Source: Halomonas sp. QHL1
GTDB taxonomy: Bacteria > Pseudomonadota > Gammaproteobacteria > Pseudomonadales > Halomonadaceae
Assembly: GCF_001882345.1 (NCBI RefSeq)
Contig: NZ_MINL01000001.1
Location: 1,759,705-1,823,704, forward strand
Length of the DNA: 64,000 bases
Direction of reading: 5' to 3'
The notes under the pieces are model-generated. The model did not search any database and was not told the DNA's origin. It saw only the letters and a program-made list of their open reading frames with translations. Position 1 is the first letter of the stretch. Each line of letters begins with the position of its first letter. This document shows, piece by piece, positions 1,192-33,549 of this stretch. A program made the position numbers and the translations under genes.

Positions 1192-2637
1192 ATGCGACTA
1201 CGCAATTTGATTATTTTGACGGTGATTGTGCCGCTGTTTGTCATCCTGGTGGTATTTAGCTTAGTGGCGATCAAATCGCTCGAAGATAACGTACGTTCAA
1301 AGCTACAAACTGAAGTTGAGATTATTACCCGTACGCTGAGCTCCTCGCTCAGCTACGCGGTCACCCCCGACAGCAACACGCCGCTTGAGGAAGCGCTACA
1401 GTCAGCGTTCTCCTTCCATAGAATTTACGGCGCTTATGTCTTCGATACCGAAGGGCGCGATATTTATGGGCTTGGCCTGGGCAAGGATATTTTCAGTCGC
1501 GAAGAGATTCAGCAAATCATCGAACGCGATGACCTTTACAGCAATTACCGACAACACGAGGGTTGGAATTACTACTCTGCGTTGACACCCTTGCGCTCAC
1601 AAGATGGCACTGTATATGGCGTACTTCAGGTTAATCGGCTAAATACCGGTATTGAGAACTACACGGGTTTTATCAGCGTTGTGGCCGTACTAGTGTTTGT
1701 GATTGGTGCGGCCGGGATCGTGTTTAGTATTTGGTGGGGCTTCCGGCGCCATATTGAGCGCCCGCTTAATCGGCTTCTGCACGTAATGCAGTTGGTAGAA
1801 AAAGGGGACCGCAGCCAACGTGCCACCGAAGACGGCCCTATCGAATACCGCCACCTCGCCTCTGGTTTGAATGGCATGCTGGATGCGATGGCCGAGAAAG
1901 ACCAAGAGATCGAAAATCGCCAGCGGCGCGAAATTGAGCTTGAAAAGCGCCTGCGTAAATCGAAAAAGCTGGCCGAGCTCGGCGTACTGGCGGCGGGAGT
2001 TGCCCATGAGATAGGCGCGCCGCTAACGGTGATTAATGGTCAAGCCCAGCGTTTGGCTCGCCGCGATGTCATTGGCGATGACGAACGGGCACGGCTAGGG
2101 CGTATACGCGGCGAAGTAGAGCGCATCGTTGAAATCGTTCGCCAATTGATGGAGTTAGGACGTCAACATAACGTAGAGAAAGGCGAGCTGGCGCTTGATC
2201 AGCTTATTATGAATGCCAGCGATTTAGTTGAAGACGAGCTAGAACCACGCAATATTCGTTTAGACATTGAATTACCGACGCCAGCACCCAACTTACTCGC
2301 CAACGGCCAACAAATTGTGCAGGTGCTGACCAACTTGCTGCGCAATGCAGCGCAAGCCCCCGAAGTAAGCAAAATTCGAGTACGCGCCCAGCAGCAAGAG
2401 AACGAATTACTACTGTGGGTGGAAGATGATGGCCCGGGGATACCCAACTCCCATCACCATAAAGTGTTCGACCCATTTTTTACCACCAAACCGGTTGGCC
2501 AAGGCAGCGGTTTGGGACTCTCTATGGTACATCGCATTATTAACGACCACGGCGGCACGATCGGCGTGTTTGACAGTGCCCTAGGCGGCGCTGGATTTGA
2601 AATTACGCTACCTATTAGTGAAACCGCATCCGCGTGA
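1192..2637 (+). CDS. membrane sensor histidine kinase
   Basis: Two-component sensor of 481 residues. Membrane segments lie at about 7-28 and 158-181 and flank a periplasmic sensor region of about 130 residues. A HAMP linker (about 182-235) and coiled coil follow, then a HisKA box with the phospho-accepting His at 272 in AHEIGAPLTVING, and a HATPase domain with N box (NLLRNAA), G1 (DDGPGIP) and G2 (GQGSGLGLS). The X-region reads HEIGAPL where HEIRNPL or HEINNPL is usual. The stop overlaps the first codons of the regulator's open frame, so the pair is one transcription unit. The architecture resembles AtoS/ZraS-type partners of sigma-54 activators. The signal is unknown. Confidence 0.93.
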   Translation: MRLRNLIILTVIVPLFVILVVFSLVAIKSLEDNVRSKLQTEVEIITRTLSSSLSYAVTPDSNTPLEEALQSAFSFHRIYGAYVFDTEGRDIYGLGLGKDIFSREEIQQIIERDDLYSNYRQHEGWNYYSALTPLRSQDGTVYGVLQVNRLNTGIENYTGFISVVAVLVFVIGAAGIVFSIWWGFRRHIERPLNRLLHVMQLVEKGDRSQRATEDGPIEYRHLASGLNGMLDAMAEKDQEIENRQRREIELEKRLRKSKKLAELGVLAAGVAHEIGAPLTVINGQAQRLARRDVIGDDERARLGRIRGEVERIVEIVRQLMELGRQHNVEKGELALDQLIMNASDLVEDELEPRNIRLDIELPTPAPNLLANGQQIVQVLTNLLRNAAQAPEVSKIRVRAQQQENELLLWVEDDGPGIPNSHHHKVFDPFFTTKPVGQGSGLGLSMVHRIINDHGGTIGVFDSALGGAGFEITLPISETASA

Positions 2638-2648
2638 GGACAACGTTT

Positions 2649-4049
2649 GTGACCCATCAGGAACCCCTATTACCTTTGTTGGTGGTGGAAGATGACGCCG
2701 CTATACTTGAGCTACTAGAAGAAGAACTGCAGGATGCAGGCTACACAACGCTCGGTGTAACTAGCGCTGAAGAGGCGATCGCCTTATTGAGCCACACCAC
2801 CGTCTCACTGGTAATTACCGACGTGCGTTTGCCGGGTATGACCGGCATTCAACTACTCCAGCAGCTCCGCCAAGCAGGCAGTGAGCTGGGCATCATTGTG
2901 ATTACCGCTTTCGGCACTATTGACCAGGCGGTCGAGGCACTAAAACTCGGGGCTGACGACTTTTTAACCAAGCCGCTCGACCTTGATGCCATCCGCGATG
3001 CCGTATTTCGTGTGCTGGAGCGCCAACGCTTGGCGGTTTTCCACGACACGGATATCAGCCATTTCCACGGCATTGTGGGTAAAAGCCAGGTCATGCAGAC
3101 GCTATTCCATGACGCCTCCCGCCTTGCCAAAAGCGATGCCCCCATCCTGATCTTAGGTGAAAGTGGCACCGGCAAAGAGCTACTTGCCCGCGCCATTCAT
3201 CAGGAAAGCCCGCGTCATGACCAGCCGTTTGTGCCGGTTAACTGTGCAAGTATTCCCGCGGATTTGATGGAAAGTGAGTTCTTTGGCCATGTCAAAGGCG
3301 CCTTTACCGGGGCTAACGAAGCACGCCGAGGGTTATTTCATAGCGCCCAGGGCGGCAGCCTGTTTTTAGATGAAATTGGTGAAATGCCGATCAATCTGCA
3401 GGCTAAATTGCTGCGCGCTTTGCAGGAGAAGACCGTGCGCCCAGTGGGCGGCGAGCGCGAAGAGCCGGTAGATGTACGCATCATCGCCGCCACTCACCGC
3501 AACCTGGAGAAAGAGATCGAGCAGGGAAACTTCCGCAGCGATTTGTTTTACCGCTTGGAGACGTTCTCACTGCGTATCCCCCCGCTGCGCGAGCGCGGCA
3601 CCGATATCGAGCATCTTGTATTTGCGCTTATCGACAAGCATTCGGAGGCACAGGGCAAACAGATAGAGCAAATCGAGCCGGAAGCGTTCAGCAATCTACT
3701 CAACTATGCCTACCCCGGTAATGTTCGCGAACTAGAGAACGCCATTATGCGGGCCGTCACTCTGAGCGAAGACGGCTCACTCAGCTATAAAGATCTGCCC
3801 GAGCGACTGCGCGAGCAATCAACAGTGGAAACCGGCACGCCTCTGGTACCTGCAGTCCGCGGCGAAGTGCTGGCTGGAGGTCAAATGCCAACGCCACCGC
3901 CGATCCGCTGGCCCAGCCTGGAAGAAGTTGAAAAGCGCTATATTAACAAGGTGCTAGAAGCAACGGGTGGCAACAAGCGGCGCACGGCGGAGGTCCTTGG
4001 GATTGCTCGTCGGACGCTCTATCGTCGCTTGGAAGATAATGAAGAGTAA
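2649..4049 (+). CDS. sigma-54-dependent response regulator (NtrC family)
   Basis: Activator of sigma-54 promoters and partner of the kinase just upstream. Counting from the GTG at 2649, a receiver domain covers 8-120 with phospho-acceptor Asp near 58 (TDVRLPG). The AAA+ domain follows with Walker A GESGTGKE near 170, the sigma-54 contact motif GAFTGA near 217 and Walker B LFLDEIGEM. A Fis-type helix-turn-helix ends the protein (NKRRTAEVLGIARRTLYRRL). I place the start at GTG 2649, not GTG 2634, because a GAGG box at 2636-2639 stands nine bases before it and the longer form would add five residues ahead of the receiver fold. No target operon is adjacent, so the regulon is unknown. Confidence 0.93.
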   Translation: MTHQEPLLPLLVVEDDAAILELLEEELQDAGYTTLGVTSAEEAIALLSHTTVSLVITDVRLPGMTGIQLLQQLRQAGSELGIIVITAFGTIDQAVEALKLGADDFLTKPLDLDAIRDAVFRVLERQRLAVFHDTDISHFHGIVGKSQVMQTLFHDASRLAKSDAPILILGESGTGKELLARAIHQESPRHDQPFVPVNCASIPADLMESEFFGHVKGAFTGANEARRGLFHSAQGGSLFLDEIGEMPINLQAKLLRALQEKTVRPVGGEREEPVDVRIIAATHRNLEKEIEQGNFRSDLFYRLETFSLRIPPLRERGTDIEHLVFALIDKHSEAQGKQIEQIEPEAFSNLLNYAYPGNVRELENAIMRAVTLSEDGSLSYKDLPERLREQSTVETGTPLVPAVRGEVLAGGQMPTPPPIRWPSLEEVEKRYINKVLEATGGNKRRTAEVLGIARRTLYRRLEDNEE

Positions 4050-31813: not shown

Positions 31814-31921
31814 AAGTACGCTTTGGCCCTCTTAAGCCTCTCGCTAGCTTAGCCACTCAATCGAGCAGTTGGTCAATCGAGTAGCCACCTCGCAATAACT
31901 GTTAAGGAAAACGATACGCTT

Positions 31922-32101
31922 ATGACAATGGATCACTCACGACGCGGGCTGCTGCGAGCGGCAACGCTTGCTGGCCTTGGTGCACTCATACTTCCCGGCA
32001 CAACGCTTCTTCCTGCCGCACGAGCTGCCGCTCCCAAGCTTGGCCCACCGCCCACTGCGGCGACGGTTAATGGCTGGCTACTGCGCAACAGTGACCGCTG
32101 A
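31922..32101 (+). CDS. 59-residue twin-arginine leader protein coupled to GMC oxidoreductase
   Basis: Short gene of 59 codons. It starts MTMDHSRRGLLRAATLAGLG: a twin-arginine motif SRRGLL, a mild hydrophobic core to about residue 28, and an ARA cleavage site near residue 36-37. The mature peptide would be only about 24 residues, Pro/Ala-rich and ending NGWLLRNSDR. Its TGA overlaps the ATG of the GMC gene (TGATG), so the two are co-translated. Small Tat-exported subunits of GMC dehydrogenases (gluconate and fructose dehydrogenase gamma-type) are known but are about 150-200 residues; this looks like a minimal form that could carry the leaderless flavoprotein out as a complex. Ribosome site AAGGAA is rather far upstream. 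Confidence 0.65.
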   Translation: MTMDHSRRGLLRAATLAGLGALILPGTTLLPAARAAAPKLGPPPTAATVNGWLLRNSDR

Positions 32102-33549
32102 TGTATATCGCTTTTGAGGATATCAGTGAGCACAGCGAGGCAGTGGATGTTTGCATCATCGGCGCGGGTGCGGCGGGCATTTCCATGGCCGTTACCCTTG
32201 CAGAGCGGGGGCACCGGGTACTGCTCTGCGAAGGAGGCGATGCGGAGTACAGCGAACGCTCCCAGGATTGCTACCGAGGGGAAGTCGTCGGAGACCCTTA
32301 TATTCCCCTCTATGGCGCTCGCCTGCGCCATTTAGGCGGGTCGACCAACCACTGGGGTGGCATCTGCCGACCACTCGATCGCTATGACTTTACCGCCAAG
32401 AGAGCCGCCAGTGAGACGGCCTGGCCTATTGGCCGGGATGCGTTAGCGCCCTACTACCGCATTGCCGCCAGCGTGCTCGACTTGGCGTCTACACCTGCTG
32501 ATCAGCCGATCACGAACTCTGGGCTCAAGCGCATCTATTTCTCACTGGGCCACCCGACGCGCCTTAAGGAGAAATATGCCACCACTTTGAGCGAGTCGAC
32601 CACGCTGGAGTGCTGCCTAACAGCCAACTTGGTTGCGCTGGAAAGCCAAGATGGCAAGGTCACCGGTGCCACTTTCAAAAACTACCAAGGTGAGTATCGA
32701 AAGGTTCAGGCGCGCTACTTTGTACTGGCCTGCGGCGGCATCGACAACTCGCGCCTGCTGCTGTGGTGCAATCAGCAGTTAAATGGCCAGCTAATACCTC
32801 AAGCTGGCACCTTAGGTCGCTACTGGATGGAGCACCCCCACGCTACGGTGGGCAAAGCGCTACTTTTCGAACCAGCGGCACTGGGTCTGGACGAAGTTTA
32901 CAACGTGTTCCTCTCCCCCACCGCTCACTCCATCAGCTCTCGCCAAATACTAAACTGCGGACTGCGCTTACACCGTATGAACGCTGAAGCCACCCAGGAG
33001 CTGATTGACGAGCTAGCCGATCAGGCGCCAACGCTGGCGGGACGACTGCGCGTCTGGCAGGCCCAGGGGCGGGTGATACACGGCACGGCGGTAAGAGCCG
33101 CCTGGGAGCAAGAACCTCGCTTTGACAATCGCATAGAGTTAAGCGAAGAACTGGATGAGCTGGGCGTACCGCGTAGCCGCTTGGTGTGGCAGCAGTCCGA
33201 GCTGGATCGTCATACTATCCGCGAGAGCATGCTGCTATTGGGTGAGTATCTGCGCGACAACGAGATCGGTAGGCTACAACTGGCTGACTGGCTCGTCGAT
33301 ACGCCGGTAAAGTTGCCCACCGAGGGCGAGTTGGCTGGCCGTCACCATATGGGCGGCACGCGCATGAGCCTTAATGCCGAGCAAGGCATCGTTAACACCG
33401 ACTGCCAACTGTTTGCCCAGGATAACTTCTACGTGGCGGGTTCCAGCGTTTTTGCCAGCGCCGGACACGCCAACCCTACTTTAACGCTAGTACAGTTGGC
33501 CCTGCGGCTTTGCGACCATCTAGAGAGCAGGCTAACGCAAACCGTCTAA
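32101..33549 (+). CDS. GMC-family FAD-dependent oxidoreductase
   Basis: Flavoprotein of 482 residues, at the short end for GMC enzymes. The FAD-binding Rossmann motif VDVCIIGAGAAGISMA lies at about 15-30, with the ribose-binding Glu in LLCEGGD. LGGSTNHWGGICRPLD is the second FAD-contact segment. The C-terminal GMC domain has HHMGGTRMS, NTDCQLFAQDNFYVAGSSVF and SAGHANPTLT, where the His-Asn pair is the expected catalytic site. There is no own signal peptide, but the overlapping upstream gene supplies a Tat leader. No cytochrome or electron-acceptor subunit is nearby. The substrate, probably an alcohol or sugar, is not readable. It sits inverted between apaG and apaH, ending three bases inside the apaG stop. 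Confidence 0.85.
   Translation: MYIAFEDISEHSEAVDVCIIGAGAAGISMAVTLAERGHRVLLCEGGDAEYSERSQDCYRGEVVGDPYIPLYGARLRHLGGSTNHWGGICRPLDRYDFTAKRAASETAWPIGRDALAPYYRIAASVLDLASTPADQPITNSGLKRIYFSLGHPTRLKEKYATTLSESTTLECCLTANLVALESQDGKVTGATFKNYQGEYRKVQARYFVLACGGIDNSRLLLWCNQQLNGQLIPQAGTLGRYWMEHPHATVGKALLFEPAALGLDEVYNVFLSPTAHSISSRQILNCGLRLHRMNAEATQELIDELADQAPTLAGRLRVWQAQGRVIHGTAVRAAWEQEPRFDNRIELSEELDELGVPRSRLVWQQSELDRHTIRESMLLLGEYLRDNEIGRLQLADWLVDTPVKLPTEGELAGRHHMGGTRMSLNAEQGIVNTDCQLFAQDNFYVAGSSVFASAGHANPTLTLVQLALRLCDHLESRLTQTV

Follow-up and report, generated by a model that had tools for sequence, protein, structure and literature searches.

Within the window analysed here, a stretch of 64,000 nucleotides from Halomonas sp. 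QHL1, a very short gene with a twin-arginine (Tat) leader stands directly in front of a gene for a GMC flavoprotein that has no leader of its own. We consider it probable, at roughly three chances in four, that the product of the short gene is a Tat hitchhiker subunit of minimal size, which co-exports the folded GMC flavoprotein. The argument draws on selection acting on the short protein, on the recurrence of the pair in other genomes, on longer partners that carry the same C-terminal motif, and on the likeness of the pair to GMC enzymes for which a Tat partner has been documented.

The short gene occupies positions 31922-32101 of the window (+ strand, stop codon included), where it is identified by homologues and a codon test, and its translation is MTMDHSRRGLLRAATLAGLGALILPGTTLLPAARAAAPKLGPPPTAATVNGWLLRNSDR*, a protein of 59 residues. 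The initial annotation had described a 59-codon frame with SRRGLL, a hydrophobic core and an ARA site; translation confirms all three, and by direct count a cut after ARA would leave the 24 residues (about 24 had been proposed). The Tat leader would thus comprise residues 1-35 (31922-32026, + strand), with SRRGLL in the n-region followed by the hydrophobic core and ARA as the predicted cleavage point, and the putative remainder would span 32027-32098 (+ strand). The remainder ends in a conserved C-terminal motif, TVNGWLLRNSDR (32063-32098, + strand), which was delimited by alignment and codon test and whose counterpart in a homologue is predicted to form a beta-hairpin and a helical turn. A Shine-Dalgarno-like AAGGA lies 13 nt ahead of the first ATG (31904-31908, + strand), and 15 of 16 close homologues likewise have AAGGA no more than 35 nt 5' of the start chosen for them. 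In the window, translation could equally well begin at the second in-frame ATG (31928). Scanning for promoters and terminators gave no signal above chance. The TIGR01409 profile scores the window protein at 13.0 bits, below its curated cut-off of 16.7, and is matched by 13 of 36 short homologues at E<=0.1.

The stretch 31922-32101 is a protein-coding gene in which leader and tail are both kept. Two arginines (R7 and R8) and one Trp are invariant in 36/36 aligned short proteins, an alignment whose members were partly picked for RR/KR, Trp and hydrophobic residues; with that selection in mind, the twin Arg is retained in relatives as had been anticipated. In the same alignment the Gly before the Trp, the Leu two positions after it and the Asp six positions after it each reach at least 90%, and the tail as a whole has the consensus V-x-V-[ND]-G-W-[LIV]-L-x-x-x-D. 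An [ND]-G flanked by two alternating hydrophobic segments looks like a tight beta turn. A larger set of 66 motif rows was chosen by pattern (a Trp preceded by one of [GSR] and followed by two hydrophobic residues), and here residues outside the selection pattern are conserved as well, with [ND] at -2 of the Trp in 53 rows and Asp at +6 in 63. Across 15 indel-free homologues, whose pairs are non-independent, pN/pS is 0.315 for the whole small frame; by part, the leader has 0.249, the linker 0.656 and the C-terminal 12 residues 0.250, to be read against references of 0.145 for the GMC gene and of 1.18 and 1.75 for two shifted frames of the small gene. Alignment and codon test together therefore bear out the suggestion that the last residues are conserved besides the leader. 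The idea of the tail as noise behind the leader was dropped on its low pN/pS and its retention in distant taxa. Several homologues (L086 and L105, for example) are without an AxA site. Scans of the short proteins against Pfam and NCBIfam yielded no family assignment, a PDB profile search with the short family returned 53 weak matches that fall nearly all on the leader part, and in the literature searched we recognised no paper on this short Tat partner.

A search with the small protein in 58 genomes, its own included, gave matches in 17 at E<=1.1e-6; this, together with purifying selection and the tail kept in distant taxa, argues that the small frame is more than chance. Weaker matches (E 2.8e-4 and above) fall in genomes without this GMC gene or at second places in genomes that also have the pair, with the exception of G027, in which the small gene is real but divergent. 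The GMC protein matches 21 of the same 58 genomes, 20 of them in the genus of the window, and judged by position the small gene, or what remains of it, precedes all 20 same-genus GMC genes, a count that includes G032 (frameshift in the small frame) and G012 (stop in the GMC gene). The initial annotation had proposed to look for the coupled short gene in other Halomonadaceae, and it does recur there: among 201 genomes of the family, 35 carry the GMC gene (E<=1e-110) and 34 of these have a short Tat gene upstream, the sole exception (locus L166 of G941) being a truncated GMC gene from which the small gene is absent. Confinement to that family proved too narrow, since short Tat genes also stand beside GMC genes in Hyphomicrobiales, Roseobacteraceae, Azospirillum and Myxococcales loci.

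Broader samples give a similar picture at the level of single loci. A contig scan produced 40 loci, of which L083, L088 and L090 (GMC cut) were left out; the 37 examined span Vreelandella, Halomonas, Modicisalibacter, two Hyphomicrobiales MAGs, a Myxococcales MAG and Maritimibacter, and 36 have the short gene upstream (L059 and L066, with a broken small frame, are counted among these), with L093 the one without. The phylum sample of 398 genomes contains 12 GMC places at E<=1e-90 in 11 genomes, with a short gene upstream at nine and a long partner downstream at L103; at L097 and L104, as at L053, no partner was found near the GMC gene. A sample of 385 genomes from the class of G288 holds 11 GMC places in 10 genomes, of which L097 and L105 were already counted in the phylum sample: the short gene is upstream at L105, L106, L107, L112, L113 and L114 and downstream at L108 and L110, a long partner is upstream at L111, L097 has none, and L109 is cut by the contig end. 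Family f69 (101 genomes) has the short gene in 10/10 GMC-bearing genomes, and a short or a long partner accompanies the GMC gene in 3/3 GMC records of the plasmid collection. G288 itself carries two GMC copies about 5.6 kb apart, with the small gene at just one of them.

The presumed cargo is encoded at 32101-33549 (+ strand) and is 482 aa long. It belongs to the GMC oxidoreductase family, with PF05199 (GMC_oxred_C) at 63 bits (cut-off 24.6) and FAD_binding_2 at 39.3 (cut-off 20.4). It shows no leader because its start lies only about 15 residues before the FAD-binding motif, and the aligned GMC rows likewise begin shortly ahead of this motif. Its best PDB matches by sequence are glucose dehydrogenase 6a2u (E 7e-21, over residues 410-476 only) and then fructose dehydrogenase (4.2e-14). 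Compared by fold, the GMC protein of L106 is closest to fructose dehydrogenase (Z 34.9, rmsd 4.3, 422 aligned), followed further down by choline oxidase (Z 31.1), the alpha subunit of the glucose dehydrogenase BcGDH (Z 29.9, rmsd 4.0, 414 aligned) and, close behind, pyranose oxidases; since choline oxidase ranks above BcGDH alpha and pyranose oxidases lie so near, fold alone is not specific for a hitchhiker cargo. No clear clue to a substrate came from the neighbourhoods of distant loci, where open frames were judged solely by their first residues. By the same kind of judgement, the GMC genes of some distant loci (L154 of G288, L091, L089) lie near genes resembling those of sugar-nucleotide or polysaccharide synthesis.

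These properties of the flavoprotein bear on an alternative in which the small protein leaves the cytoplasm by itself and works as a peptide that is secreted or held at the membrane (for example an electron-transfer or anchoring factor), while the GMC protein is exported otherwise or stays inside. Binding between the two proteins is something we infer, and homologues that lack AxA, such as L086 and L105, could stay anchored in the membrane, both of which leave room for such an arrangement. Against it, Tat serves folded cargo, and the GMC rows have no leader by which to travel. Moreover, the nearest enzyme by sequence, glucose dehydrogenase, is itself a documented hitchhiker cargo in the available part of PMC6719666, and on balance we regard export of the small protein alone as unlikely.

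The closest documented parallel to a hitchhiker pair is BcGDH (PDB 6a2u/8grj). According to the available part of PMC6719666, its gamma chain is the Tat hitchhiker subunit of the FAD glucose dehydrogenase alpha, has five helices, and ends in a hydrophobic C-terminal tail, with Phe158 and Trp159, that covers the contact area on alpha like a lid. The window pair resembles this arrangement in that the Tat leader is carried by the small partner of a GMC cargo, and both of its marks in sequence, a leaderless GMC protein and an adjacent partner gene, are found in the window; BcGDH alpha is furthermore the best PDB sequence match of the window GMC protein and is among the near folds of the L106 protein. 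By analogy, the tail of the short protein may be comparable to the lid tail of gamma. Unlike gamma, the short protein has no helical body between leader and tail, with 24 residues in all after ARA. The pair also departs from complexes of the BcGDH/FDH type: cysteines in a 3Fe-4S-like arrangement (C-x4-6-C-x2-4-C within residues 120-260) occur in 0/62 GMC rows, by a pattern scan rather than a residue-level alignment to BcGDH, and a cytochrome c subunit is absent from the two immediate neighbours of the window pair, which are Metallophos and ApaG proteins.

Other known systems share single aspects of the pair. The small subunit of fructose dehydrogenase (FdhS) is comparable as the small partner of the GMC enzyme with the nearest fold; FdhS carries a Tat signal, is much longer, and is one of three subunits in an enzyme that has a cytochrome. 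TIGR02811 (formate dehydrogenase region TAT target) likewise describes a very short Tat protein that is named for a neighbouring redox enzyme, in a model of 66 positions, and is weakly matched by 10 of 36 short proteins (best E 4.4e-4). It differs from the present family in its cargo, and the window protein reaches 17.4 bits, short of the cut-off of 48.45, in a match of profile positions 7-41 to residues 3-37, that is, on the leader part. FAD-glycoside oxidoreductase (FAD-GO) is likened to the window pair here by its gene layout: in the available part of PMC4650693 it is described as a GMC enzyme with an adjacent Tat small subunit and a start/stop overlap in two strains, with the partner gene downstream of the enzyme gene, unlike the order in the window.

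FAD-GO also offers what support there is for a small protein that acts as a cytoplasmic assembly chaperone of the GMC enzyme and whose Tat-like N-terminus is incidental or membrane-holding, in that the Tat partner raised the soluble yield of FAD-GO enzymes (PMC4650693, available part). Such a role fits poorly with a leader under selection and with an RR that is invariant in the 36 aligned members, even if these were partly picked for RR/KR, and we consider it quite unlikely.

The overlap between the two genes, TGATG at 32099-32103 (+ strand), is present in the sequence as first noted, with TGA at 32099-32101 and the GMC start ATG at 32101-32103. Offsets of the GMC start relative to the end of the small-gene stop were tabulated in 62 distinct pairs, two of which (L016 and L059) have broken small frames; they are -1 in 43 pairs and -4 in 13, more rarely +1 (2), +2 (2), -11 (1) and +10 (1), so that 56/62 pairs have an overlap of the TGATG or ATGA type. 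In the window, the bases directly ahead of the GMC start hold no Shine-Dalgarno-like sequence, and a Shine-Dalgarno-like tetramer is found in this position in just 19 of 60 tabulated pairs. Frequent overlap with few such tetramers would suit a small frame that is mainly a translational leader, setting the level of GMC by coupled re-initiation while the peptide itself has no job, but this reading is very unlikely given protein-level selection on both leader and tail, the tail kept in distant taxa, a longer partner with the same tail, and the position of the short gene downstream of GMC in L108 and L110, where it is not merely a translational leader; the gene as a coupling device only was dropped on these grounds.

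The longer partners were found beside more distant relatives of the GMC protein, in six instances (L111, L174, L186, L176, L187 and L167). These proteins of 118-140 aa, for which there is no name, have in common with the short form a Tat leader and a terminal DGW motif, and differ from it by an extra region between the two. A search for long partners in 240 genomes found 14 GMC places in 13 of them, with a long partner at 5/14; none was found at the other nine places, among which L175, L180 and L182 were incompletely scanned. When the profiles of the short and the long family are compared, the tails align over 15 columns (E 1.1e-4 for one comparison, probability 57%), and the short family against the single protein L111 gives E 0.0012 with a probability of 19%. 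Among the six long partners none matches Pfam at E<=1, the two weak matches to NCBIfam look unrelated, a PDB profile search with the long family gave nothing convincing, and a plasmid search with one long partner gave no match. That related GMC genes have beside them a longer Tat partner, ending in the motif of the short form, supports the initial proposal of a hitchhiker system reduced to little more than its leader, of which binding and export are the parts that we infer.

On a 62-row GMC tree, the rows with a short partner form one supported group (SH-aLRT 100) of 51 rows, made up of 46 with the short gene upstream, 2 with it downstream, L097, L109 and the artefact row L179 (branch 7.52, 47% filled); L107 has no row. 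The long-partner rows lie outside this group, in an unresolved fork and in no supported clade, and the difference between long and short partner amounts to one change on the tree. The long Tat partner may be either an ancestor or a derivative of the short form.

A structure model was obtained from locus L106 of G632 (1495-3156, - strand), where the small frame is in phase with the GMC frame and split from it by one TAG and two codons. This is the only in-phase pair seen, and may reflect read-through or a former fusion. With the TAG read through, the pair was modelled as a single chain in AlphaFold2 from two alignments, A7 (24 rows) and A8 (16 rows), giving pTM 0.80 and 0.79. Both runs fold the motif as a strand (36-39), a turn, a second strand (42-45) and a short helix (46-49). 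Block pLDDT for the motif region is 58 and 65 in one run and 60 and 69 in the other, and the block preceding it has 35 and 39. A model of such modest confidence supports a beta-hairpin for the tail motif, one that the artificial link may help to form. In these runs a docking place of the hairpin on the GMC protein was not seen, and the rows listed by VIA-align span 66-554, which does not cover the hairpin part.

The pair lies in the window segment 30879-33923, flanked by apaG- and apaH-like genes that run on the opposite strand. Six same-genus genomes were chosen because no GMC gene was found in them, and apaG and apaH are adjacent in all six, which means that the two genes are either both there or both missing, as a single unit of about 1.7 kb: the site is a two-gene insertion, or loss, in a housekeeping cluster. 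TatC is encoded in the same genome as the window (233.5 bits). Damage was seen in either gene of the pair. The small frame is frameshifted while the GMC frame remains open in L059 (AP019416.1, a complete Halomonas genome) and in L016/L066 (a MAG), where the frameshifts are either sequencing error or decay; in L011/L081 (Halomonas sp. JB37) a stop interrupts the GMC gene and the small gene is intact. In two plasmid records (L149, 5802-5990; L187, 3717-3992) the annotated partner starts inside the frame and the annotation drops the twin-arginine part.

Taken as a hitchhiker pair, the two genes suggest the following course of events. Both proteins would be made together by translational coupling, for which the overlap provides the opportunity, and the GMC protein would fold and take up FAD in the cytoplasm, as is general for this class of enzymes. 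The VxVNGWLLxxSD tail, probably a beta-hairpin to judge from its conservation and the modest-confidence model, would dock on the folded flavoprotein, and the twin-arginine leader of the small protein would then take the complex through the Tat pore. In the lineage of the window, cleavage of the leader at ARA may reduce the small protein to a subunit of 24 residues, and where lineages lack an AxA site the leader may remain as an anchor in the membrane.

The partners of documented GMC hitchhikers are larger, and it is hard to separate leader, body and interface in them. With the body missing and some 12 conserved residues left for the cargo, the minimal tie between leader and cargo becomes testable with very short peptides. 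We somewhat favour the wider view that the pair represents a widespread, unnamed class of two-piece Tat substrates, in which a separate protein supplies the leader and adds to it only a portable hairpin of about 15 residues for docking. Few natural hitchhiker partners would be as short; a longer partner would be either their source or their descendant, and folded flavoproteins could be exported with them as ready-made, detachable tags. If the hitchhiker reading is true, it would place a group of leaderless-looking GMC enzymes in the periplasm, and would provide protein export with a short docking tag of natural origin.
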